Positions 5,176 through 14,865 of a stretch of 43,991 nt of DNA are shown here, piece by piece. The number at the start of each line of letters is the position of its first letter. The first letter of the stretch is position 1. This stretch comes from Bacteroidales bacterium. Its GTDB lineage: Bacteria > Bacteroidota > Bacteroidia > Bacteroidales > UBA932. The notes under the pieces are model-generated. The model worked only from the letters and a program-made list of their open reading frames with translations. It did no database searches and was not told where the DNA came from. The stretch spans positions 1 to 43,991 of the forward strand of contig JAKSKO010000009.1 of the NCBI GenBank assembly GCA_024401715.1, read 5' to 3'. The position numbers were made by a program, and so were the translations under genes.

Positions 5176-5192
5176 AGGGGGCAGCGCCCCCT
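5176..5192. repeat. GC hairpin
   Basis: AGGGGGC-AGC-GCCCCCT, a 7-bp stem with a three-base loop, between the dispersed repeat and the tRNA terminator. Confidence 0.5.
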
Positions 5193-5231
5193 CAAAACGA
5201 AAGAAGCTCCAGACGAATGTCTGAAGCTTCT
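5193..5231 (-). terminator. displaced original terminator of tRNA-fMet
   Basis: A strong stem-loop (5202-5231: AGAAGCT.CAGAC / GTCTG.AGCTTCT, loop of four, one G-T wobble on the minus strand) followed on the minus strand by TTCGTTTTG. It stands one base from the TAGTAG at 5233. If the element were removed, this hairpin would lie immediately after the 3' end of the initiator tRNA gene, as tRNA terminators do. Inference: it is the ancestral terminator, pushed 9.5 kb away by the insertion. Confidence 0.65.
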
Positions 5232-5232
5232 G

Positions 5233-5238
5233 TAGTAG
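5233..5238. other. attL core of the integrated element
   Basis: TAGTAG, matching TAGTAG at 14790-14795. Flanks differ as expected for serine-integrase products: the left flank fits the tRNA terminator and the right flank continues the integrase reading frame. A six-base match alone is weak; the context makes the case. Confidence 0.6.
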
Positions 5239-5351
5239 AAGAACTGATACAATTATCGAACCCTTTTCTGGATGGGTTCAAGGCAATTGTGGGGTATCTG
5301 CAAGCTGTGGGAAAGTGTACATTACCATATAACTCCTTATCAAAGAAATGA
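5235..5351 (+). pseudogene. detached 3' end of the large serine recombinase gene
   Basis: Joining the codons TTA GTA at 14789-14794 to the matching GTA at 5235-5237 keeps the recombinase frame open for 37 more codons to TGA at 5349-5351. The added tail reads EELIQLSNPFLDGFKAIV... and ends NSLSKK. A terminator-like hairpin follows at 5395-5430. In the excised circle this would be the natural C-terminus; in the integrated state it is an orphan with no start codon of its own. An open run of 37 codons can occur by chance (roughly one in six), so the supporting points are its exact placement at the core and the terminator. Confidence 0.5.
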
Positions 5352-5394
5352 TGCGTGTGCAATGTGGCTATCCTATGGGCTACGCCCCAGTGGG

Positions 5395-5430
5395 GAGGGC
5401 TTTTTATAAGTGTAACTGCCCTCAATTTTT
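5395..5430 (+). terminator. terminator downstream of the detached integrase 3' end
   Basis: GAGGGC (5395-5400) pairs with GCCCTC (5418-5423), followed by AATTTTT. The loop is 17 bases. A second small hairpin, CCCC-AGT-GGGG, overlaps its left side. It lies 44 bases past the TGA of the detached integrase tail. Confidence 0.5.
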
Positions 5431-5433
5431 GTC

Positions 5434-5515
5434 ATGGTAGAGGTAAATACAATAGGCGTATGACAGTTTGGAACAGGGGCCTCAACTTTACCTCAGATGA
5501 AAAAATTTCTACCAT
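5434..5515. repeat. nested inverted repeats, possible origin
   Basis: Two perfect 8-bp inverted repeats are nested: ATGGTAGA (5434-5441) with TCTACCAT (5508-5515), and GAGGTAAA (5440-5447) with TTTACCTC (5487-5494). The left arms overlap by two bases, so the pairings compete at their junction. The region 5352-5580 has no convincing gene and lies upstream of the Rep-like gene, the usual place for a rolling-circle origin. Confidence 0.4.
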
Positions 5516-5580
5516 ACTTAGAACTTTTTCCTCTATTGCCATATTTATATACAGAGGCACATTAACGCCCAGTATAAAAT

Positions 5581-5772
5581 ATGAAACACAAAAGACAATA
5601 CAGAGAGCTTGACGATGATGTAAAAGCGAAGATTGGTCAAGCTCACAGGAACAAACCGAAATCGGAAAGCCACAAGCAGCATCTGAGCCAGTCACTGACC
5701 AGATACTGGCAAACCGTACCCCACAAACCGTCTGGTGAAACACCTTCAATAACCAATGGCGGAATCGTATAA
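5581..5772 (+). CDS. small basic protein, NUMOD3-like
   Basis: A 63-aa protein, strongly basic in its first half. The stretch KIGQAHRNKPKSESHKQHLSQ resembles the NUMOD3-type DNA-binding motif (short basic helix, S-x-E/H pattern) found with homing endonucleases, but no nuclease domain is attached. It lies 60 bases upstream of the Rep-like gene in the same direction and may be co-expressed. The product is probably a DNA-binding accessory protein of replication or of the origin; this is inference. No Shine-Dalgarno sequence, as is normal for the phylum. Confidence 0.5.
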   Translation: MKHKRQYRELDDDVKAKIGQAHRNKPKSESHKQHLSQSLTRYWQTVPHKPSGETPSITNGGIV

Positions 5773-5832
5773 ATCCCCCACTTATCAAGGGGAAGAAGAA
5801 GGAAAAAATAAAGCAAGTAAAATGAAAATTAA

Positions 5833-6762
5833 ATGCAATTATTCGACAAGTTGATGCTTGTTGCTGACTTGGATTCAATCAGAATCATTGATGAGTCTGC
5901 ATTTAGCAAGCAGGTAAAGGAAAACAAAACAACATCGCTGAGGTACTGTCAGGAAAAACCTTACTTCCTCAGCATCAAAATTGACTATGAAGAACGAGAA
6001 GCCGTAGTAGAATTCAGTGGAAAGGTTCTTCTTAACGATTACCCAAAACTTATTTCAAAAGAGACAATAGAGCAATGCTTCCGAAGTATAAATGCCCTAG
6101 GTTTTTGCGAGATAGACATTGAGGCAATGATGGGTGCAGATGTTACAAAGTGTGATGTCACTAAAGATTTGCCGTACGGGGATGTTCCTAGATTAACATC
6201 CTACATTAAGAGCCACATAACAAACTACAATACTTATGTGTGCACCCGAAAGAGAAATAACAATCTCGTTCTAGAGAAGAACGTCACAACCAGAAAATGC
6301 AAGAAAAGGATGACGGTTTATGATAAGGGCGAGGAGATGTCCAGAGCGGAGAATCTGGATTTCATAAAGCAGAACAACCTTGAAGGGGCTTTTGATGGCA
6401 TCTGCCGATTTGAACTAAACCTTAACTCCAAACAGCAGATACGGGATTCACTAGGCGTTACAAACACAAAACTCAATACGGTGCTGGCATCTACGGCTAA
6501 TCCTATCTATGATTTTGTTGAGGCCGCCGTAAAGACTCAATCGGAGGATGATAAACTCAATGACCGAAAGGAATACATTACGATGCTGGTGTTGAAAGAC
6601 TGCGACTATGATTTGGAGAAGGTGGAGGCTACGTTGCGAAGCCTCTACAAACGAGGTACAAAATTTTCAGAAGTCATGAAGCCATACCGCAAGGCTATTG
6701 ACAAGCTCCATTTTCAGAATGACGCCGACACCCTTCCAAAACTTCTGGATATGCTGAGGTGA
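5833..6762 (+). CDS. Rep-like protein (phage/plasmid gene II/X type)
   Basis: A 309-aa protein. The segment EFSGKVLLNDYPKLI, the later KCKKRMTVYDKGEEM, and GICRFELNLNSKQQIRDSL follow the layout of rolling-circle replication proteins of the filamentous-phage gene II/X (Phage_CRI) group, in which a conserved Y-D-K precedes a strand with R-x-E-x-x-L. A clear HUH metal site is not visible, so the assignment rests on overall pattern. It is the only replication-type protein in the element and sits next to inverted repeats that could be its origin. It is convergent with the operon to its right, and a shared terminator separates them. Confidence 0.5.
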   Translation: MQLFDKLMLVADLDSIRIIDESAFSKQVKENKTTSLRYCQEKPYFLSIKIDYEEREAVVEFSGKVLLNDYPKLISKETIEQCFRSINALGFCEIDIEAMMGADVTKCDVTKDLPYGDVPRLTSYIKSHITNYNTYVCTRKRNNNLVLEKNVTTRKCKKRMTVYDKGEEMSRAENLDFIKQNNLEGAFDGICRFELNLNSKQQIRDSLGVTNTKLNTVLASTANPIYDFVEAAVKTQSEDDKLNDRKEYITMLVLKDCDYDLEKVEATLRSLYKRGTKFSEVMKPYRKAIDKLHFQNDADTLPKLLDMLR

Positions 6763-6804
6763 GGTAAATGTGTCAAATCTTGAAATGTGTCATTTTAAGG
6801 TTTC

Positions 6805-6852
6805 AAAAAAGGTGATACAGACCGAAATCTTGTATCACCTTATTTTTTTATC
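6805..6852. terminator. bidirectional terminator
   Basis: Perfect 11-bp stem AAGGTGATACA (6809-6819) / TGTATCACCTT (6831-6841). It is followed by a T-run on the plus strand and preceded by an A-run that gives a T-run on the minus strand. It serves the convergent Rep-like gene and Sel1-gene operon. Confidence 0.85.
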
Positions 6853-7189
6853 TTTTTTTGAATAATCCGAAGAGGCCTTTACCTTGGAGGTGGCGCAAAG
6901 ATTGCTTTGAAAGTGCATAACCTTGATTTGCCGCAAGGGTGTGCCATTCGATGGCTTTGTCCTTGTTCATCTCGACACCCATGCCCATTTCGTACAATTT
7001 GGCAAGACTCCACTGGGCTTCTGGTATGCCTTGTTTTGCGGCTGCTTCGTACCACTGGGCAGCCTTTACATAATCTTTTGCAATTCCATGTTCAAACTGG
7101 TAACAGCTGCCTAATAGGAATTGAGCTACTGCATCTCCGCTCTCAGCGGCAGATACTAATTCATTACTGTAGTTTACGTTGTTGTCCAT
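6848..7189 (-). CDS. Sel1-like repeat protein
   Basis: A 113-aa protein with about two and a half Sel1 (TPR-like) repeats: AQFLLGSCYQFEHGIAKDYV, then AAQWYEAAAKQG-PEAQWSLAKLYEMGMGV, then KAIEWHTLAANQGYALSKQS. Sel1 repeats make alpha-solenoids that hold protein partners together. No signal peptide, so cytoplasmic. Last gene of the leftward SPFH/zinc-ribbon operon, 17 bases after the preceding stop. Its first residues (MDNNVNYSNELV) are copied at the start of the 48-aa ORF at 8133-8279, which shows this gene's 5' end lay at a duplication junction. The tail GLFGLFKKR is basic-hydrophobic. Confidence 0.8.
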   Translation of the reverse strand: MDNNVNYSNELVSAAESGDAVAQFLLGSCYQFEHGIAKDYVKAAQWYEAAAKQGIPEAQWSLAKLYEMGMGVEMNKDKAIEWHTLAANQGYALSKQSLRHLQGKGLFGLFKKR

Positions 7190-7206
7190 TGTTATATTTA
7201 AAAGTA

Positions 7207-8127
7207 TTAAAGACCTATTAAGTCAAATATTATCCGAAATACAAGCCAAATAGCTCTGCCTATTCCAGCAAATATTCTATAAAATATATTGCCTTCTAAT
7301 TTCTCCCTAGCCTCCTTTTTCATCTTCTCTTCTTCCTCTTCCTTCTTTCTCTTCTCCTCCTCAGCAAAAAATTCATTGTACAATGAAAGGAAACTTTCTA
7401 GTGAGACTCCGTCGTATTTTTCTTCTAGCATAGCGTGAAAGTGCTCTAGGCCATCGAGTTTCCTAATAAGAGACCAGCTTTTTGTCTCGTATATGCCTAC
7501 TTCCGCTAGAGTCTCTTTGTTTCTGTCTGCCGTTTTGCGACCAACATAGCAATAGAGACCTTTGGCAATCAGTATATTAAAGCGAACACTGGTTTTAGTG
7601 ATAAGGTTATAGTAGACAAATTCAGCGTTGCGCCTAAATAATACGCTGTTGTTATAGTCAGGTAAAAGGGAATAGTCTTTTGGTGTCAGGACTCCCATGT
7701 CTTGGGGGGCATGCAACAGGTCTCCATCTCCATTTACTTTGATTAGATAACTATTATATTTACCTATTTCTTCTTTCCTTACACTTATCAGAATATAGCG
7801 ACGATTGGCTTCTACATATTTACTGTCTGATTCTATAATAATGCTAGAATATTCAATAGGTAAGACTAAATCTCCGTTTAAGTTTATCACACCTTTCAGA
7901 TTGCCTATCCTTACTTGTGCGACAACACTTATGAAATTATCAACGCTGTGAAAAATTGAAATCTTCTTTGCAAATTCTACCGAAGAGATGGTACGACGCT
8001 GTGGGATAAGCTCGTTGCAGACAGTGCTGTTGTCTTTCGCTTCGATGTGAGCACCGCAGAACTCGCAGTTTGCTCCGATTTCTCCCATTGCACCACACTG
8101 AGGGCATGTTGTAAACTGTTTACTCAT
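7207..8127 (-). CDS. zinc-ribbon protein with C-terminal membrane helix (copy B)
   Basis: 306 aa. N-terminal zinc ribbon with C8, C11, C21 and C24 (TTCPQC ... CEFC). A middle domain includes a WG/KWG-like strand (GVINLNGDLVLPIEY), a charged coiled coil follows (EEEKRKKEEEEEKMKKEAREK), and a final hydrophobic segment (AIWLVFRIIFDLIGL) is probably one membrane helix or an amphipathic anchor. No known enzyme motif. Paralogue of the gene at 8276-9229; the first 50 or so residues are almost identical and the rest diverged. Zinc-ribbon proteins accompany SPFH proteins in bacterial membrane-stress operons such as B. subtilis ydj, hence a guess at membrane surveillance. Five bases separate it from the upstream 48-aa ORF. 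Confidence 0.7.
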   Translation of the reverse strand: MSKQFTTCPQCGAMGEIGANCEFCGAHIEAKDNSTVCNELIPQRRTISSVEFAKKISIFHSVDNFISVVAQVRIGNLKGVINLNGDLVLPIEYSSIIIESDSKYVEANRRYILISVRKEEIGKYNSYLIKVNGDGDLLHAPQDMGVLTPKDYSLLPDYNNSVLFRRNAEFVYYNLITKTSVRFNILIAKGLYCYVGRKTADRNKETLAEVGIYETKSWSLIRKLDGLEHFHAMLEEKYDGVSLESFLSLYNEFFAEEEKRKKEEEEEKMKKEAREKLEGNIFYRIFAGIGRAIWLVFRIIFDLIGL

Positions 8128-8132
8128 AATGG

Positions 8133-8279
8133 CTATTCTTGGTTGTTGTATGATGTGTTTATAACAGGTGGCGCAATACGCTCCAAAATAGGTTCTGTGA
8201 ACTCATTGATTGTATTCTCATTTATGTTACAAAGGCTCTTTACCTTTACTAATTCATTACTGTAATTTACGTTGTTCAT
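8133..8279 (-). CDS. 48-aa chimeric small protein at the duplication junction
   Basis: Not an ordinary gene: residues 2-11 (NNVNYSNELV) match the start of the Sel1 protein (7189), and the last 36 residues match the C-terminus of the 111-aa protein (22 of 36 identical, ending APPVINTS-NNQE). It was therefore formed when the block between those genes was duplicated. Its ATG overlaps the TGA of the upstream zinc-ribbon gene (ATGA, 8279-8276), and it ends five bases before the next zinc-ribbon gene. That makes it well placed for translation by re-initiation; it may do no more than keep ribosomes moving to the next gene. No domain is recognisable. Confidence 0.6.
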   Translation of the reverse strand: MNNVNYSNELVKVKSLCNINENTINEFTEPILERIAPPVINTSYNNQE

Positions 8280-9229
8280 GATAATCCCAACCACATAAAA
8301 TATGAAACGATTAAAACGAAAAGTATTCCAAAAAGCATGTAAAAAGAGAGTGGACTAGGGAGCTCTGATTTTCTTCTATTTTCTTTCCATTCTTCAAACT
8401 CGGCATGGACTTGTGCGATGCGTTCTTGCTCAGCAATGAGCTCATCGTATCTTGAGAGAAATTTATCAACAGATTCCTTGTCAGAATTATAAATTCTCTT
8501 TAATATTTTATCTTCTAACTCTTTACTCGACTTTAGTATTGTATCTTCTATACATAACTTTTTAACAAGTGACCATGTTTTGATGTCGTAAATACCAGGT
8601 TCGGTTAACAATTCTTTATTTCTTTCGGAATTTAGTTTCGCATGGCGAGGACTAACATAACATTGATGGTCACTTTCAAATAGAAAAGTAAAGTATATCA
8701 CTGTATTAGTTACAAAATTGCAGTAATCATACTCGGTCCTATCCCAGCCATTATATCGTAATATACTATTGTCATAATCAGGCATAAAACTATAATTGCT
8801 ACTATCAACAAGGTAATGTGACCCCGATGGAATTGATATCATTCTTCTATCATTCAAGAAGACCAGATGGCATTCCCATCTTCCTAAGTATTTTATTGCA
8901 TCTATGAGAAGATATCTTTTACCCCAATCAGTGTCAATCTTAATTTCATTATATTCTAAAGGGAGAACCAAATCTCCATTCAGATTTATCACTCCGTTCA
9001 ATTGTCCTATTCTAGCAACTGCCAGACCCTCTATGAAATTGCCAACGTTATGAAAAATAGAAACCTTTTTCGCAAACTCAGCCGAAGATATGGTTCGATG
9101 CTGTGGGATAAGCTCGTTGCAGACAGTGCTGTTGTCTTTCGCTTCGATGTGAGCACCGCAGAATTCGCAGTTTGCTCCGATTTCTCCCATTGCACCACAC
9201 TGAGGGCATGTTGTGAACTGTTTACTCAT
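8276..9229 (-). CDS. zinc-ribbon protein with C-terminal membrane helix (copy A)
   Basis: 317 aa. Same plan as the 7207-8127 copy: zinc ribbon (C8, C11, C21, C24), a WG-like strand (GVINLNGDLVLPLEY), a helical charged region (ELIAEQERIAQVHAEFEEW), and a stronger C-terminal membrane segment (FYMLFGILFVLIVSYFMWL). The zinc ribbon would be cytoplasmic. The final codons overlap the ATG of the 48-aa ORF. Five bases separate it from the 111-aa gene upstream. No catalytic motif. Role unknown; the context suggests a membrane-associated complex with the SPFH protein. Confidence 0.7.
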   Translation of the reverse strand: MSKQFTTCPQCGAMGEIGANCEFCGAHIEAKDNSTVCNELIPQHRTISSAEFAKKVSIFHNVGNFIEGLAVARIGQLNGVINLNGDLVLPLEYNEIKIDTDWGKRYLLIDAIKYLGRWECHLVFLNDRRMISIPSGSHYLVDSSNYSFMPDYDNSILRYNGWDRTEYDYCNFVTNTVIYFTFLFESDHQCYVSPRHAKLNSERNKELLTEPGIYDIKTWSLVKKLCIEDTILKSSKELEDKILKRIYNSDKESVDKFLSRYDELIAEQERIAQVHAEFEEWKENRRKSELPSPLSFYMLFGILFVLIVSYFMWLGLS

Positions 9230-9234
9230 AATGG

Positions 9235-9570
9235 CTATTCTTGGTTGTTGTCTGATGTGTTTATAACAGGTGGGGCAATTGCTTTAAGGCATTCATGTAC
9301 GAAACTTTCTATTTTATCCTCGTTAAAACTGCACAAACGCTTCACATCGTCAATAAAAGCTTTGTGTTTGTCAAAACAATACATATGCCCCTCCAATGCA
9401 ATAAGACGCTTGTTAAACAAGGCTGCTAATGCTTCTATGAGAATTTCTGTATTTCTCTCTTTTGTGTTGTCTTTAGATAAAAACAAGCCCTTAAGGTTCT
9501 CGCCGACAATTAGGTGAATGTCTTTTTCTAGGCACTTATTTTCATCGTTACTTTTCTTTACCTCTTCCAT
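9235..9570 (-). CDS. 111-aa protein of unknown function
   Basis: A largely helical, charged protein (KKSNDENKCLEKDIHLI ..., ILIEALAALFNKRLIALEG ...). No signal peptide, membrane segment or recognised domain. The C-terminal 36 residues are the source of the chimeric ORF at 8133-8279. Sits between the 37-aa gene (11-base gap) and zinc-ribbon copy A (5-base gap), so it is part of the same transcript. It resembles small helical adaptor proteins in overall character only; no family is claimed. Confidence 0.65.
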   Translation of the reverse strand: MEEVKKSNDENKCLEKDIHLIVGENLKGLFLSKDNTKERNTEILIEALAALFNKRLIALEGHMYCFDKHKAFIDDVKRLCSFNEDKIESFVHECLKAIAPPVINTSDNNQE

Positions 9571-9581
9571 GTTTTGTGTTT

Positions 9582-9695
9582 TTAGTCGTTAAGTGGACCT
9601 TTTTCCTTTGTAGGCTGAGGTGTCTCTTTCTTTGGAAGGATGTCTGGGTCTTCATTTCCCCTAGGGATAATGTCTGAGTCTAAGAATGTTTTCAT
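9582..9695 (-). CDS. 37-aa proline/acid-rich small protein
   Basis: ATG at 9695, TAA at 9582. The product reads MKTFLDSDIIPRGNEDPDIL and then a Lys/Pro/Thr-rich tail ending GPLND. No domain, no membrane segment; likely disordered. Supported by position: two bases after the 4-TM gene's stop and 11 bases before the 111-aa gene, in a gapless operon, with gaps that would otherwise be too long. Pro-rich tails can bind GYF domains, and the SPFH protein of this operon has a GYF_2 domain, so a binding role is conceivable but unproven. Confidence 0.5.
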   Translation of the reverse strand: MKTFLDSDIIPRGNEDPDILPKKETPQPTKEKGPLND

Positions 9696-9697
9696 TT

Positions 9698-10039
9698 TTA
9701 TATCTTTTTAGAAGTTAAATTACAGATGAGGAGTATTGAGATTTCAAATGCCAGCAGGATAAGGGCGGCAACAAGGTAACCATTGTCTGTTACTGTATCT
9801 GGAGAACAGCAGCCCAAGATGAACTGCACCAATCCCAGAAAAGAGAACAGGAAGCTCAGTGAAATGGCGAATGCGTCCTTGAGTTTGACCGTGCTGAGAA
9901 GGCATATCAGAACCGCAGTGACAATAATCGCTGCGCTGGAGAAGCAGACCTTGAAAGGGGTATAGGCAGTAATGATAAACCCGAATGCTACATTGAGCAC
10001 CAAAAACAATGATGCTATTATCAGAGTGACTTTTTTCAT
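9698..10039 (-). CDS. four-helix membrane protein
   Basis: 113 aa from the ATG at 10039. Four hydrophobic segments: LIIASLFLVLNVAFGFII, CFSSAAIIVTAVLICLL, AISLSFLFSFLGLVQFIL and LVAALILLAFEISILLI. It ends in TSKKI. No recognised family. The frame extends upstream of 10039, but those codons overlap the SPFH gene's 3' end. The start follows the SPFH stop by five bases. Inner membrane is implied. Probably a membrane anchor or partner for the SPFH protein, by analogy with membrane partners in other SPFH operons. Confidence 0.65.
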   Translation of the reverse strand: MKKVTLIIASLFLVLNVAFGFIITAYTPFKVCFSSAAIIVTAVLICLLSTVKLKDAFAISLSFLFSFLGLVQFILGCCSPDTVTDNGYLVAALILLAFEISILLICNLTSKKI

Positions 10040-10044
10040 GGGTG

Positions 10045-11145
10045 TTACATTTGAGGTGGAACTGGAGGTACTGGTGGAGGGCAAGGGGATGCGAGGACCG
10101 GGACGGATTTGATAGGCGTCCAGTTAGCCATTCCAGCAGTCCAGACCAAGGTCTCGTCATTGACTATTCCTTGAGCCTTCATGGATGCTATCTGAGCTGC
10201 GGTCTGACCTCCAATCTGCTGCCCGTTTACATAGACAAAGTATGTTGTCTCTTGCGGAATCGGAGGCGGTGTTGGCTGTGGGTTGGTGTTGAGGCTAGTG
10301 TTCGCTACTCCTCCCATTACATTGCCGATTCCCATGCCTACACCGAATCCCATCATCTGAGCTCCAGCCCCAGTGTTTCCAGCAGCTTTATCCAGAACGT
10401 CAAAGCTGCGCTCCATCTGGTAAACATCACGACCAGCAAGGTTCATCCTTGCTACTGTTGTTTTAGTTTCTTTGAGTTTAACAAAGCTTGGGTCGTCTTG
10501 AGGAACGTTGATAGACATGATGGAGAAGTCTTCAAGGGAGATTCCGTATTTCTCAAAATACTTGTTGATTTCTCCCATGCAGAATTCAGATATCTCCATC
10601 AGGTATAGGTTGATGTCAAGTATCGAGATTTTGTCACTGATGATTTTCTTAGCCAGAATACTGTTAAGGGCAGAAGTCATCTTTCCTTTGAAATATGCGT
10701 CAATGGAATCAGCGGTAAAGCTGTCCATGTTCCCGATGAGGGTTTCAAGGAATAAGCGTGGGTTTGATATCCTTATGCCGTACTGACCGTATGCGCGTAC
10801 TGGCACAATGATTCCATATTTAGGGTCTTCCAGCTGTATTGGATTAGGCGTGCCCCATTTAAGGTCAAGCTTGGATATCTGGTTGATGAACCATACTTCC
10901 GCTTGAAAAGGAGAATCACCTCCGAACGGAAGGTTGATTACCTTGTTGAGAAGTGGAAGGTTCTCGCTTTTGAGGGTATATGTGCCAGATGTAAACTCGT
11001 CAAGAATCTGACCGCCCTTAACGAAAAACGCTGTCTGAGCTGTGTAAACAACAAGCTGAGAACCCAGTCTAAGGTCGTCAGATTGAAATTTTCGGCAGAA
11101 TTCGCGGTTGTTGGCTTCCCACTTTACGACGTCGATTATTGCCAT
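10045..11145 (-). CDS. SPFH-domain protein with C-terminal GYF_2 domain
   Basis: 366 aa. The N-terminal two thirds match the SPFH/'virion core protein' type (YdjI-like): IIDVVKWEANN at the start, SQLVVYTAQTAFFVKGGQI, YGIIVPVRAYGQYGIRI, and a helical part SEFCMGEINKYFEKYGISL. A glycine-rich linker (GFGVGMGIGNVMGG) and a proline-rich stretch lead to a GYF_2/DUF4339 domain (YFVYVNGQQIGGQTAAQIA ... WTAGMANWTPI). SPFH proteins organise membrane microdomains; YdjI in B. subtilis acts in a membrane-protection complex with PspA. Start at 11145 because MAIIDVVKWE is the family N-terminus; the upstream in-frame codons lie in the structured leader. First gene of the leftward operon. Confidence 0.8.
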   Translation of the reverse strand: MAIIDVVKWEANNREFCRKFQSDDLRLGSQLVVYTAQTAFFVKGGQILDEFTSGTYTLKSENLPLLNKVINLPFGGDSPFQAEVWFINQISKLDLKWGTPNPIQLEDPKYGIIVPVRAYGQYGIRISNPRLFLETLIGNMDSFTADSIDAYFKGKMTSALNSILAKKIISDKISILDINLYLMEISEFCMGEINKYFEKYGISLEDFSIMSINVPQDDPSFVKLKETKTTVARMNLAGRDVYQMERSFDVLDKAAGNTGAGAQMMGFGVGMGIGNVMGGVANTSLNTNPQPTPPPIPQETTYFVYVNGQQIGGQTAAQIASMKAQGIVNDETLVWTAGMANWTPIKSVPVLASPCPPPVPPVPPQM

Positions 11146-11187
11146 CTGTCTGAATGCTTTGCATGACCCCAAGATGCCCACTGTTAT

Positions 11188-11272
11188 ACAAAACAAAAGT
11201 GTGGAGCCAATTTCGTATTATCTAGAGGAGGCTCTGCAAAACCTTGATGGATAACCTACTGACACTCCACAC
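11188..11272 (-). promoter_or_regulatory. possible conditional terminator in the SPFH leader
   Basis: On the minus strand GTGTGGAG (11272-11265) can pair with CTCCACAC (11206-11199), which is followed by TTTTGTTTTGT. The same GTGTGGAG is one arm of the local hairpin at 11262-11290, so the two pairings exclude each other, as in attenuators. Inference only. Confidence 0.3.
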
Positions 11273-11381
11273 TCGGCTGGTATGGAGTGTTCGCTGCAAG
11301 ACGCAGCTATCCCATAGACAAAGCACGAGCGTATAAGAGTTTGCGCAGCCCCATCATTTGAAATTTTGCAGATTTCCTCTA
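11223..11381 (-). ncRNA. structured RNA in the SPFH operon leader
   Basis: Unexplained 305-base gap (11146-11450) with dense pairing. Closing stem: TAGAGGA (11381-11375) with TCCTCTA (11229-11223) and CTGCAAAA (11371-11364) with TTTTGCAG (11241-11234). Inside it are TGATGG/CCATCA, GGATAGC/GTTATCC, and an 11-bp hairpin ACACTCCATAC/GTGTGGAGTGT (11290-11262, one G-U). That is five stacked or branched helices in 159 bases. Orientation follows the promoter-like TATATTTG at 11445-11438. It may be a regulatory leader, an independent small RNA, or a DNA-level structure such as a single-strand origin. Confidence 0.5.
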
Positions 11382-11437
11382 AGGACACGAAAACACTTTC
11401 GCTAATATGTAATTGTCGGCTTATCTCAGCCAACACG

Positions 11438-11445
11438 CAAATATA
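11438..11445 (-). promoter_or_regulatory. -7 box of the SPFH operon
   Basis: TATATTTG on the minus strand; no clear -33 TTTG. Expected start near 11431, giving a leader of about 285 bases. Confidence 0.45.
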
Positions 11446-11450
11446 ATAAA

Positions 11451-11699
11451 TTATTGGTCCTTTGCCACTTTTTGAGTGACAACTCTGGACGTTGTGACAA
11501 TTATTCCTTTTCTGATGATGCACATCTTTCCGATGAACGGTCTTTCTGGCTCTATGCCGTAGTTGCGGAGGTAATTGTAGGTTACCCCAATGTCCTCCTT
11601 GCTCCAGTGTTCACACAGGGCTTTCAGATTGCCATAATAGTAGTGCTGCCCATTCAATTCCAGATGGACAACAGTCCTTTCTTGCTTCTTCTCTTCCAT
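11451..11699 (-). CDS. 82-aa protein, possible regulator
   Basis: Starts at the ATG at 11699 (MEEKKQERTVV), because the -7 box TACTTTTG at 11725-11718 predicts transcription starting near 11712 and rules out the TTG further upstream. Features: VHLELNGQHYYYGNLKALCEHWSK, then DIGVTYNYLRNYGI, then a basic tail ending SRVVTQKVAKDQ. The pattern 'short strand, helix, D-I-G-V-T-Y-x-Y-L-R' is seen in small proteins of Bacteroidetes mobile elements, with no defined function. It is divergent from the WYL_2-like gene, and the shared intergenic region holds palindromes, so one of the two may regulate the pair. Confidence 0.55.
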   Translation of the reverse strand: MEEKKQERTVVHLELNGQHYYYGNLKALCEHWSKEDIGVTYNYLRNYGIEPERPFIGKMCIIRKGIIVTTSRVVTQKVAKDQ

Positions 11700-11717
11700 T
11701 TTGATGCTTTTATCTGG

Positions 11718-11725
11718 CAAAAGTA
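11718..11725 (-). promoter_or_regulatory. -7 box of the 82-aa gene
   Basis: TACTTTTG on the minus strand, matching TAnnTTTG. The -33 region is poor. Confidence 0.4.
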
Positions 11726-11734
11726 AATAAAAGA

Positions 11735-11796
11735 TTGCATATAATGAAAATAATCCTTATTTAACTTGCATATATTAAAAATATGCACTATATTTG
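11735..11796 (+). promoter_or_regulatory. promoter with an operator-like palindrome
   Basis: TTG (11766-11768), spacer 20, -7 box TATATTTG (11789-11796). The spacer holds the inverted repeat TGCATAT-ATTAAAA-ATATGCA (11767-11787). A half-site repeat TTGCATATAAT lies upstream near 11735. A protein bound here would block both divergent promoters. The likely regulator is one of the two flanking gene products. Confidence 0.6.
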
Positions 11797-11818
11797 TATA
11801 AACAAAAACGGAACAGAT

Positions 11819-12154
11819 ATGGAAAATATGGCAATCGTAGCAATGAGTAGCAAGGATATTAGAAAAGCAATGGTAATCAATTCAAGGATAGGTAATCAGT
11901 TCCTTACTGGCTATCTTCTCAGCCTCGGTAACGAGCTTCGCAAGCGCATGTCAGAAGGCGTTATAGAGGTGTGGTTTACAAAGAAGTCAGGTGAGGTCGC
12001 TCATAGGTTTGCCACAACCAAATCTTCTCTGGTAAAGAATCATATCAATGGACGCGGTATTTCTGGTGAGCAGAGGAACGTTATAACATTCTGGGATGTA
12101 GAGAAAGGGGCATGGCGCAGTATGCAGATTCAGAGCATCCTCAAAGTTTGCTAG
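11819..12154 (+). CDS. WYL_2/DUF2693-like protein
   Basis: 111 aa from the ATG at 11819, which follows a well-formed promoter by 22 bases. The core VIEVWFTKKSGEVAHRFATT and the later VITFWDVEKGAWRSMQI look like the small SH3-like beta-barrel family DUF2693 (WYL_2), common in Bacteroidetes mobile elements. The N-terminal part (SSKDIRKAMVINSRIGNQF) is helical and may help bind DNA. It overlaps no other gene and ends four bases before the serine resolvase, so they form a two-gene unit. A role in control of the element is likely, not shown. Confidence 0.5.
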   Translation: MENMAIVAMSSKDIRKAMVINSRIGNQFLTGYLLSLGNELRKRMSEGVIEVWFTKKSGEVAHRFATTKSSLVKNHINGRGISGEQRNVITFWDVEKGAWRSMQIQSILKVC

Positions 12155-12158
12155 CGTT

Positions 12159-12794
12159 ATGGAGAAGGTCGTAATCATTGCCAGGGTCAGCACAGACAAG
12201 CAGGAGTATCAGAGGCAGCTGATTGAACTTCGTGAGTATTGCGCGAGGATGCAATGGGAGGTTGTGAAGGAGTTCGCAAACAAGGTCTCTGGAGCATCCA
12301 AGATTGAGGATAGGGAAGAAATCCTTGGTCTGGTCGAGTATGTCAAGAAGAACGATGTTAAGCGCGTTGTATGCCTTGAAATCAGCAGACTTGGACGTAA
12401 TACCCTTGAAGCCCTCAAAATCATTCAGACCCTCAATGAAAACAAGGTGAGCCTTCATGTAAAGAACTACAACCTTGACACCCTTACTTCTGATGGTAAG
12501 GTCAATCCAGTAGCCAGCCTAATATGCACCATTCTTCTGGAGATAGCCCAGATGGAACGCTTGACCATCAAAGAACGCATGACCAGCGGACGAAACCAGT
12601 ATATTGCCAACTGCAAAGCCAATGGTATCAAAATGGGTCGTCCATCATCTTACCGCAAGACCGATGAGTCATACAAGGCTCAGTATGCCAAAGAAATCAG
12701 TCTGTTGAAGAAAGGAATAAGTCTCAGAAACGTTTCTGAGCTTACTGGAACAAGCGTCAACACCCTCCGCAAGTTGAAGCGATTTTGTTTTTAA
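12159..12794 (+). CDS. small serine recombinase (resolvase/invertase)
   Basis: 211 aa. The N-terminal catalytic domain has the active serine in IIARVSTDKQEYQRQL (Ser around residue 11) and the second signature EISRLGRN. The long helix QMERLTIKERMTSGR joins it to a C-terminal helix-turn-helix (LLKKGISLRNVSELTGTSVNTLRKLKR). This is the normal architecture of Tn3-type resolvases and DNA invertases; length is typical. It acts on short paired sites by DNA double-strand cleavage through the serine. In this element it may resolve multimers or invert a segment. It follows the WYL_2-like gene by four bases. Not the integrase: that is the large recombinase downstream. Confidence 0.9.
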   Translation: MEKVVIIARVSTDKQEYQRQLIELREYCARMQWEVVKEFANKVSGASKIEDREEILGLVEYVKKNDVKRVVCLEISRLGRNTLEALKIIQTLNENKVSLHVKNYNLDTLTSDGKVNPVASLICTILLEIAQMERLTIKERMTSGRNQYIANCKANGIKMGRPSSYRKTDESYKAQYAKEISLLKKGISLRNVSELTGTSVNTLRKLKRFCF

Positions 12795-12814
12795 TTTTCA
12801 AAAATATATATTTG
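12784..12814 (+). promoter_or_regulatory. promoter of the integrase unit
   Basis: TTTG (12784-12787), spacer 19, -7 box TATATTTG (12807-12814). Start expected near 12821. Confidence 0.65.
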
Positions 12815-12821
12815 CATTAGA

Positions 12822-13018
12822 AGCGCAGCCTTCTTTGATAAGGCAGAATTTCTAAATTCAAGCTATGCGTTTTCGCTGGTTACAGAGTTACCAGCAATAA
12901 TAAGCCGAAAGGCATTCTAAGTTTATTTTTCACGATATAACAACAAATTTGAACCAGCTGTAAGTGCTGGAAGGGTGACGTGTCCCTTGGACGACCAGAA
13001 GACAGTGCAAAGTGCGCT
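12822..13018 (+). ncRNA. structured leader upstream of the integrase unit
   Basis: Non-coding stretch of about 240 bases between promoter and the 53-aa gene. AGCGCA (12822-12827) can pair with TGCGCT (13013-13018) to close the region. Inside are GAATTT/AAATTC (12846-12859), GCTGGT/ACCAGC (12875-12895), a GNRA-capped hairpin GCC-GAAA-GGC (12904-12913) and CCAGC/GCTGG (12954-12970). The density suggests a folded leader; no known riboswitch class is recognised. Confidence 0.35.
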
Positions 13019-13058
13019 GAGTCTCAATACACAAATAAGAGTTTAAAATGGCTCTTCA

Positions 13059-13220
13059 ATGGTTTTAACTGAAAATTTAAAAGAAGACGTAAAAGACGAA
13101 TTTAAAAAACTAGGCATCGAAAATATAGATGACATGCTCTCAATCTGTAACGGCTTGGATGCTATTGCTGAGATTGGATATACAATTTACAAAAATAAAA
13201 GGCTTAAAAATTCACGATAA
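13059..13220 (+). CDS. 53-aa protein coupled to the integrase
   Basis: ATG at 13059, TAA at 13218-13220. The stop overlaps the integrase ATG (TAATG), which points to translational coupling. The sequence is acidic-basic helical: MVLTENLKEDVKDEFKKLGI, then NIDDMLSICNGLDAIAEIGY, then a basic end KNKRLKNSR. No recognised domain. Small proteins next to a serine integrase are candidates for the recombination directionality factor, which controls excision; that is inference from position only. Confidence 0.6.
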   Translation: MVLTENLKEDVKDEFKKLGIENIDDMLSICNGLDAIAEIGYTIYKNKRLKNSR

Positions 13221-14833
13221 TGATAAGGAAAAAGAAATACTTGACAAAAGATGAAAAAATAGTTGCCAAGAGATATGAATTGGCAAAGAAAGAAAAGGTA
13301 GCGGCTATATGGACAAGGGTGTCTTCCGCAGACCAGTTTAAAAAGAACTGTTCAATAGACACACAGTTAGATGCTTGTCGTAAATACTGCAAGGATAATG
13401 GTTATCGCATCAAAAAGGAATTTGGCGGCACGAATGAGTCTGCAAAGGTGGCTGGCGAGTTGTTTCTGGATATGATAAGCGAGGTTGGGAACGACCCAGA
13501 GTATAACATAATTGTGGTGTTTGATTTTGACAGATTCTCAAGAAATTCAAATGATGGAATCATATATAAGACTGCCATCAAGAGGAAGGGAGTATGTGTG
13601 AAGTCAGTGAATCAGATGATAGATGAAAACAGTGTTGTTGCAGAGCAGATGGAAAACATCTTTATCGTATTGGCTGATTTTGAAAATGCTATGCGTAGGC
13701 ATAAATGTCATGATGGAATGGTGGCTTGCGTCAGGAGAGGAGAATTGTATTCACGTCCACCATTTGGGTATGATTCCAAGAAGGTGGGGAAACATCATGT
13801 GATAACGGTCAATGAGCAAGGAAAGCTTCTAAAACTGGCGTTTCAGTGGATTGCAGATGAACCAAACATTTCCCAAGCGGAAGTGCGAAGGAGGCTTAAG
13901 GTTTTGGGGCTGGATATGTCAAAACAAAAGTTGTCTCAGTGCTTGCATAATTGTTTTTATTGCGGTCTTTTTGAACATAAATATCTGGATGGGGAAGTCA
14001 TCAAAGGCAAGCAAGAGCAGTTGGTTTCAAGGGAACTGTTTGACAAGGTGCAAAGTATCCTTGATGGGAACAATAAGGATTACCAGCATTCAGAAATAAC
14101 TCCAGATTTCCCCTTGAAGCAGCATGTCTTCTGTGCTAAGGATAAACATGCCCTCAGTGGTTACACGGTAAAGGCAAAAGGAATAAACTATTACAAGTGT
14201 GGAGTGAAAGGGTGTAGAACCAATGTGTCGGCAAAGGAAATGCACAAAAAATACTCTGATGTCTTGAATGGTCTATCAATACCATCAGAACTTAGACCGA
14301 TACTGGAGTTCGTAATCCGACTTAAATTTGAACAGAAGGAAGGGCAGGATATAGAACTTATGAAAATGATAGAGAAGAATATCAAGACCACGGAGACAAA
14401 GCTTAAAAACGCCAAGATAAAATATGTTACAGACAATGTTATAAGTGAGTCTGATTATATTGAGGTCAAGACAGAACTGGAGTCGCAGATACGCGAATAC
14501 AAGAAAGAGCTTGCAAGATACTCAGAATATCAATCGAACCTTGCGGATTATACTGCTGAGGTGCTAAAATTCGCCTCTACAATAGGTTCAGAGTGGGATA
14601 AAGGCAATTTTGAGGTATGTCAGCAAATACAAGCTCTGGTCTTTCCTCAGGGAGTGTTGTGGGATGGTGAAACACGTAGCTATCGAACCGATGGGATGAA
14701 CCAATTTTTCTCACAAATCGTCAATCTACGCAGCTGTGTTGAGGCTAGTGGTAAAAAAGAAACGGACAACGATTACTCATTGTCCGTCTTAGTAGCGGGT
14801 GAAGGACTCGAACCTCCGGCCTCCGGGTTATGA
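13220..14833 (+). CDS. large serine recombinase (integrase)
   Basis: 537 aa in the integrated state. Catalytic domain: AAIWTRVSSADQ with the active Ser near residue 35, then VVFDFDRFSRN. A recombinase domain follows (SRPPFGYDSKK ..., ISQAEVRRRLKVLG), then a zinc-ribbon region with cysteines in FCAKDKHALSG and YKCGVKGC, and a coiled coil (MIEKNIKTTETKLKNAKIKY ...). This is the large serine integrase layout. The last 12 codons (AGEGLEPPASGL) are read from the initiator tRNA gene on the other strand, so the natural C-terminus must lie on the other side of the att site: see 5235-5351. The gene sits at the right end of the element, next to attR. Confidence 0.92.
   Translation: MIRKKKYLTKDEKIVAKRYELAKKEKVAAIWTRVSSADQFKKNCSIDTQLDACRKYCKDNGYRIKKEFGGTNESAKVAGELFLDMISEVGNDPEYNIIVVFDFDRFSRNSNDGIIYKTAIKRKGVCVKSVNQMIDENSVVAEQMENIFIVLADFENAMRRHKCHDGMVACVRRGELYSRPPFGYDSKKVGKHHVITVNEQGKLLKLAFQWIADEPNISQAEVRRRLKVLGLDMSKQKLSQCLHNCFYCGLFEHKYLDGEVIKGKQEQLVSRELFDKVQSILDGNNKDYQHSEITPDFPLKQHVFCAKDKHALSGYTVKAKGINYYKCGVKGCRTNVSAKEMHKKYSDVLNGLSIPSELRPILEFVIRLKFEQKEGQDIELMKMIEKNIKTTETKLKNAKIKYVTDNVISESDYIEVKTELESQIREYKKELARYSEYQSNLADYTAEVLKFASTIGSEWDKGNFEVCQQIQALVFPQGVLWDGETRSYRTDGMNQFFSQIVNLRSCVEASGKKETDNDYSLSVLVAGEGLEPPASGL
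14751..14787 (-). terminator. element-supplied terminator of tRNA-fMet
   Basis: On the minus strand ACGGACAA (14787-14780) pairs with TTGTCCGT (14769-14762), followed by TTCTTTTTT. It begins five bases after the tRNA 3' end and lies inside the integrase coding sequence on the opposite strand. It replaces the chromosomal terminator now at 5193-5231. Confidence 0.75.
14790..14795. other. attR core
   Basis: TAGTAG. It overlaps the last three bases of the tRNA (C71, position 72 and discriminator A73), so integration leaves the tRNA sequence whole. Confidence 0.6.
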
Positions 14834-14865
14834 GCCCGACGAGCTACCAACTGCTCTAACCCGCG
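14793..14865 (-). tRNA. initiator tRNA-fMet (CAT)
   Basis: A 73-nt cloverleaf on the minus strand. Anticodon loop CTCATAA gives CAU. Initiator hallmarks are all present: no Watson-Crick pair at 1-72 (C1 against U72), three G-C pairs next to the anticodon loop (GGG/CCC), and A11-U24 in the D stem. T loop TTCGAGT. CCA is not encoded. The mobile element is joined at its 3' end. Confidence 0.93.

Follow-up and report, generated by a model that had tools for sequence, protein, structure and literature searches.

A serine integrase gene of Bacteroidales elements that contains its own attP site and has different C-termini in the predicted circle and in the integrated element

What becomes of an integrase when the site at which it recombines lies inside its own gene? 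The question is raised by a 9.6-kb element in the window, by which we mean the whole stretch of DNA that was analysed (43,991 nucleotides of contig JAKSKO010000009.1, assembly GCA_024401715.1, from a Bacteroidales bacterium). The element is bounded by two TAGTAG cores (attL core, 5233-5238; attR core, 14790-14795), and its last gene (13220-14833, plus strand) encodes a large serine integrase of 537 residues in its integrated form. This protein matches the Resolvase catalytic domain (PF00239, 4.4e-19, residues 29-175) in its N-terminus, the Recombinase domain (PF07508, 2.6e-8, residues 199-284) and the integrase family phrog_95 (1.4e-52, residues 11-470), and the long C-terminal part is present.

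An integrase gene that crosses its attachment site

The open reading frame (ORF) of the integrase crosses the attR core and enters the gene for tRNA-Met(CAT) (14792-14865, minus strand, predicted by ARAGORN), the target of integration, and its C-terminus, AGEGLEPPASGL, is an antisense reading of the tRNA. When the two cores are joined as in an excised circle, the frame continues for exactly 37 in-phase codons after the left core to a TGA at 5349-5351, giving a form of 562 residues. The detached 3' end of the gene (5239-5351, plus strand) comprises the tail of the circle form, EELIQLSNPFLDGFKAIVGYLQAVGKCTLPYNSLSKK (codons proper, 5239-5348), and the stop codon, and was recognised by in-phase continuation, by related tails in other elements and by codon-position bias. 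Both the frame running into the antisense tRNA and the phase kept across the joined cores had been proposed in a preliminary description and hold; a terminator hairpin placed there 44 bases past the joined stop is a weak point, as that segment does not fold better than shuffled sequence (z 0.10). The further proposal, that attP lies within the integrase gene and that two forms of the enzyme result, is strongly supported by relatives, as the joined frame is restored in all 34 elements whose left end was found by the rule described below (32 of 32 and, in a later search, 2 of 2). At the level of sequence, these comparisons show that attP is contained in the integrase gene and that the gene has two forms.

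The position of the left end was examined by RNA folding. The host DNA at attL (5185-5232, minus strand) is likely to be the original terminator hairpin of tRNA-Met: together with the core (5185-5238) it folds at -21.2 kcal/mol (z -4.24) as a terminator hairpin of the tRNA type, and empty tRNA-Met sites of related genomes (for example locus L059) carry, as judged by eye, a hairpin-like sequence at the equivalent place. Because the flank folds as a terminator and the empty sites carry this similar sequence, the left boundary of the element is very probably the insertion boundary. Just before the right core the minus strand of 14752-14795 also folds (-18.4 kcal/mol, z -5.87), and the hairpin at 14760-14789, followed by UUUCUUUUUU and lying within codons of the integrase, could act as a replacement terminator of tRNA-Met after integration.

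Left ends and tails of related elements

Integrase matches, counted here and below with the window's own genome included, were found in 39 of 200 genomes of the genus, in 48 of 398 genomes (9 of 25 genera) of the family and in 33 of 393 genomes (31 of 206 genera) of the order; a larger genus draw with a looser limit, which also admitted small recombinases, gave 79 of 400 genomes. Of the distinct integrase frames, 23 of 30 from the genus loci, 27 of 30 from the family and 16 of 28 from the order enter an antisense tRNA, these sets overlapping, and the targets are tRNA genes for Met, Leu, Asn, Arg, Ala, His and Lys. In four cases the frame closes 55 to 104 bases ahead of a tRNA (L019, 55; L010, 74; L174, 78; L179, 104), and L019, L174 and L179 are broken integrase copies; for the remaining frames no tRNA lies nearby, some being at contig ends and some belonging to distant relatives. 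As separate observations, more distant serine integrases in two human-gut phage records (L202, L203) and in IMG/VR (L123) also read into tRNA genes (tRNA-Leu, tRNA-Glu and tRNA-Arg), and three orphan integrase 3' ends (L215, L216, L217) run into tRNA-Met sequence with the remaining gene unmatched nearby.

A tblastn search with the tail from the window detected the left ends of relatives, starting in phase at the core. In 13 hand-curated pairs of left and right ends, 12 integrases cross the core, all 12 of them in phase into a related tail, and in the 13th the frame is broken before the core. The pairs have a short identical core in attP and attB, down to GTAG, and an outer motif that lies 5 bp farther out in attP. 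This motif is that of the tRNA T-loop (TCGAAC; TTGAAC for tRNA-Asn); its distance from the core G is 16 bases in the tRNA but 21 in the element. In the window it stands antisense in the tRNA as the attB half-site motif (14808-14813, offset 18 from the core start versus 23 in attP) and again in the P' half-site (5256-5261, plus strand). The printed attP and attB offsets differ by 5 in 11 of the 13 pairs; of the two exceptions, one (L002) carries the motif with a single base changed, and the other (L019) was matched by the pattern at an earlier stretch.

From the 13 pairs a search rule was derived, namely a 4-bp core at the tRNA end and a copy of the tRNA's T-loop motif exactly 5 bp farther out. 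Applied to 34 further pairs, it gave 18 left ends, all with an in-phase tail judged related by eye, and 2 false hits; the left end was not found in 14, of which 9 had less than 7 kb upstream, and 2 were not searchable. Three of the 34 pairs (L007, L011, L013) came from an earlier, unsuccessful search with a looser pattern. At spacing 21 a left end is present in 32 of 46 Bacteroidales elements, the window included, in a scan that omits L019 (broken integrase frame) and L009 (no tRNA found, unclear core); 14 of these 32 hits belong to the pairs used in deriving the rule or to their companions (L082, L083). In all 32 the frame stays open in phase for 24 codons or more. For the remaining spacings (11-34), any hit occurs in 3 to 11 elements and an in-phase run of this length in 1 to 9, and exact motif copies number 23 at spacing 21 versus at most 2 elsewhere. 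As a control for frame, the three phases were compared over all 43 hits, among them the false ones: the integrase phase stays open for 23 codons or more in 42, the other two phases in 11 each. The frame and spacing controls lead us to reject a chance open frame. The last search, of seven more elements, gave 2 left ends, both in phase with a tail of the W type. Altogether 40 upstream regions were available, 31 in the test of 34 pairs and 8 of the other 9 in the later run (7 searchable, 2 hits), with L253 unused; the elements are partly non-independent, as with the near copies L118/L120 and L108/L110.

The 32 listed tails were obtained by removing two recognised false peptides and any tail shorter than 20 or longer than 69 codons and by taking the attL nearest the integrase where there were several. 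In seven independent, hand-chosen pairs, the 12 codons past the att motif show 25, 19 and 54 differences at codon positions 1, 2 and 3, of 84 each (p 7.7e-6), and the control just past the stop in the same pairs shows 62, 62 and 61. Similarity between tails tracks similarity between the integrase cores (r 0.88, with none of 2000 permutations as high). Taken whole, the tails score between groups 24.6 on average in the integrase phase versus 16.2 for shuffled sequence, the other two phases also being slightly raised (17.5 versus 15.2 and 16.1 versus 14.7). For tails of the W type, similarity to other groups after the motif is weak (z 0.26 to 1.33) and a common origin with the other tails is for this reason uncertain; among themselves, with all pairs counted, they show a clear codon bias (47/24/72).

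These data bear on two explanations in which the tail would be no part of the integrase. Conservation of the left end might reflect the P' half-site as DNA, the open frame being incidental, and the TCGAAC/TTGAAC motif at a fixed distance is what this would predict; the excess of third-position differences, however, extends past the motif, the tails run to 25-45 codons, far beyond a half-site, and the tRNA-Leu gag/tag group, which crosses the core in another phase and reads the motif as YRT and not LSN, is still similar, in the residues after the motif, to the Met and Asn groups (z 2.67 and 3.60). This explanation is disfavoured and appears very improbable. As little credit is due to the idea of a separate small gene at the left end that would comprise the tail and be expressed when the element is integrated: in the window an ATG in host DNA does open a frame of 44 codons, but the start codon is not conserved (8 of 32 tails lack any ATG, GTG or TTG in the first 12 codons, and start positions vary in the rest), and the phase equals that of the integrase in the recovered elements. 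As far as sequence comparison reaches, the codon pattern shows selection on a protein segment that would be joined to its gene only in the circle.

What the tail might do

We consider it likely that attP lies in the last part of the integrase's own gene, that the circle encodes a 562-residue enzyme with a selected tail and the integrated element a 537-residue enzyme, and that the tail helps integration or hinders its reversal. In the excised circle the gene would be whole and would give the enzyme with the conserved C-terminal tail; recombination with the tRNA gene would then detach the tail codons and leave an enzyme ending in tRNA-antisense residues. Since the circle is the only place where gene and tail are joined, and the tail codons are nevertheless under selection, the tail should matter at the circle stage. 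Its use would lie in the circle or shortly after entry, while the long form is made, and it would most likely aid attP x attB recombination or block immediate reversal. The integrated copy makes the short form only, and therefore any excision must be carried out by the short form; the tail-less enzyme would be left for this reaction, perhaps assisted by a partner such as the 53-residue protein encoded just upstream. We infer that the tail acts at the integration stage and that its loss contributes to directionality. An effect on the balance of integration and excision fits with which form would be made when, and also with a synthetic precedent, integrase fusions with a recombination directionality factor (RDF), as far as the accessible part of the source describes them (PMC5737554).

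Two other explanations accept the swap and give it a different meaning. It might be a neutral by-product, the tail being selected for folding or general activity in the circle, its loss being tolerated and direction being set only by a separate RDF. Serine integrases do use a separate RDF for the reverse reaction, according to the portion available of PMC5737554, and a small ORF lies just upstream of the integrase in 12 of the 17 loci inspected, these ORFs being alike, as judged by eye, within groups; yet every one of the 32 recovered elements retains the tail, which the integrated copy of the enzyme always lacks, and it can be argued, purely as reasoning, that a general role would more easily shift to the integrase side of the core. 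On balance we regard a neutral swap as unlikely. Alternatively, the tail or the tRNA-encoded residues might be a degradation signal, similar to the ssrA-like tag in the integration-dependent immunity of mycobacteriophages, for which the parts seen of PMC9262239 and PMC4557955 provide a precedent in repressors. Since none of the 32 tails ends, by eye, in LAA or a close variant and the resemblance between tails sits in the middle and not at the ends, a stability switch of this kind seems rather improbable.

Several observations weigh against the proposal of a tail acting on direction. The tail could serve stability, not direction. No left end was recovered for 14 of the 46 and 5 of the 7 elements, and 7 of these 19 (L175, L181, L183, L114, L007, L289, L291) had more than 10 kb upstream. 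That relatives might have integrases normally ending before the core had been named in the preliminary description as a finding that would speak against it: most frames reach the tRNA, but in L010 (G091:C72) the frame closes 74 bases short of tRNA-Arg. No inner stop is seen in L010, unlike the broken copies L019, L174 and L179, so that it possibly ends before the core; it may represent a late nonsense change or a relative whose integrase ends there. Finally, the searches of genomes, plasmids, phages and viral contigs revealed neither a circle nor a read nor an excision product, and among the best matches listed for plasmids, phages and viral contigs there was no complete long form.

To look for the long form, a profile was built from the joined frame (559 positions, with the core near position 524). 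In the 398 family genomes, and this too counts against the proposal, every match starting before position 200 ends at or before position 527 of 559; in the order search (393 genomes) such matches end at or before 525, and in the larger genus draw one match reaches 533, through a stop codon (G169). As long matches end near the core, the genome searches did not show the tail beside a full-length gene. As possible circles, nine human-gut phage records were considered, and all nine lack an end overlap; none of their integrase matches extends past model position 514, so that all stop ahead of the tail, and two of the nine enter other tRNA genes. A viral contig that ends inside an integrase (L122) has no continuation at its opposite end. 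What does exist in real DNA, at ten places, is the 3' part of an integrase gene running in phase into a tail. Six of these junctions (L032, L277, L278, L279, L280, L281) have an integrase part reaching back 27 to 113 model positions from the core, with the tail cut short in L278, and four (L033, two in L035, L282) retain a remnant of 13 to 21 positions. They were selected by eye, with L283 and a stretch of L034 at 5234 excluded; these also match the model just before the core, in a part that was judged to be host terminator. The ten are probably remnants of tandem arrays. The genome search proposed in the preliminary description has in this way yielded tRNA-integrated relatives and in-phase junctions, and not the contiguous full-length long form. 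On its own, the L035 locus (G071:C6, 11125-15505) holds four left-end remnants at one tRNA-Met gene, that is, successive insertions at the same site.

The recurrence of the layout in related elements suggests, from sequence, that integration itself may alter what the enzyme can do. That these elements represent an order-wide family of serine integrases with a self-editing directionality switch, in which integration would delete a C-terminal module and the gene would remember the state of the element, is a tentative proposal to which we would give slightly less than an even chance. The earlier interpretation, taken as a whole, is partly supported.

Neighbouring genes and known systems

The 53-residue ORF (13059-13220, plus strand) overlaps the integrase start (TAATG) and is a candidate RDF on account of its position and of the small ORFs at the same place in relatives. 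The upstream neighbour of the integrase among the larger genes (12159-12794, plus strand) encodes a small serine recombinase with a Resolvase domain only (PF00239, 3.2e-28). Farther upstream, 7207-8127 and 8276-9229 are tandem paralogues with a common cysteine-rich start (CPQCGAMGEIGANCEFCGAHIEAKDN); neither protein has a match in NCBIfam or PADLOC, and the first has none in Pfam either. The 309-residue protein encoded at 5833-6762 has no match in Pfam, NCBIfam or PHROGs and chance-level hits only in PDB; relatives of it (39-57% identity) occur in 10 of 20 upstream regions, and it is perhaps a replication or mobilisation protein. A scan of 8 cargo proteins for defence families gave one weak match, to PtuA (6.8e-5), from a protein with Sel1 repeats.

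In its Resolvase and Recombinase domains, its short shared core and its 5-bp motif shift, the integrase resembles the Listeria A118/LI integrase and those of Bxb1 and phiC31; for LI integrase, the part seen of PMC3783163 describes a zinc-domain motif shifted by 5 bp between attP and attB. Serine-recombinase integrative and mobilizable elements are described, in the accessible sections of a review (PMC5704250), as disrupting dispensable genes. Unlike large serine integrases in general, the present one has attP in its own gene, a conserved tail past attP and tRNA targets that are apparently recognised via the T-loop. In mycobacteriophage Giles, attP is said to overlap the int gene, which there encodes a tyrosine integrase.

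An attP inside a gene, with integration shortening the protein, is already known from the repressors of mycobacteriophages (PMC9262239, PMC4557955, as far as their available text goes). BPs and its relatives are alike in having attP in a regulatory gene, a tRNA target and a C-terminal segment that is lost (33 residues in BPs), and a coding sequence containing attP whose C-terminus is changed by integration is likewise found in the window and its relatives. In the BPs type, however, the gene is a repressor accompanied by a tyrosine integrase and the lost piece is a degradation tag, whereas here it is the serine integrase itself, with neither an ssrA-like tag on a repressor nor a tyrosine integrase. 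Engineered fusions of serine integrases with an RDF also alter the favoured direction within one protein, according to the part available of PMC5737554, but these are artificial, and what the integrase gains in them is a complete RDF protein. In the literature searched, which comprised the best-ranked papers, in part of their text, and few subscription papers, no description was found of a serine integrase whose conserved tail lies across attP.

The T-loop rule suggests why these integrases can use many different tRNA genes. One-way control of serine integrases is a central question for phage biology and for genome tools, and a conserved segment that is joined to its gene only before integration would be a part of the enzyme with a possible stage-specific function.

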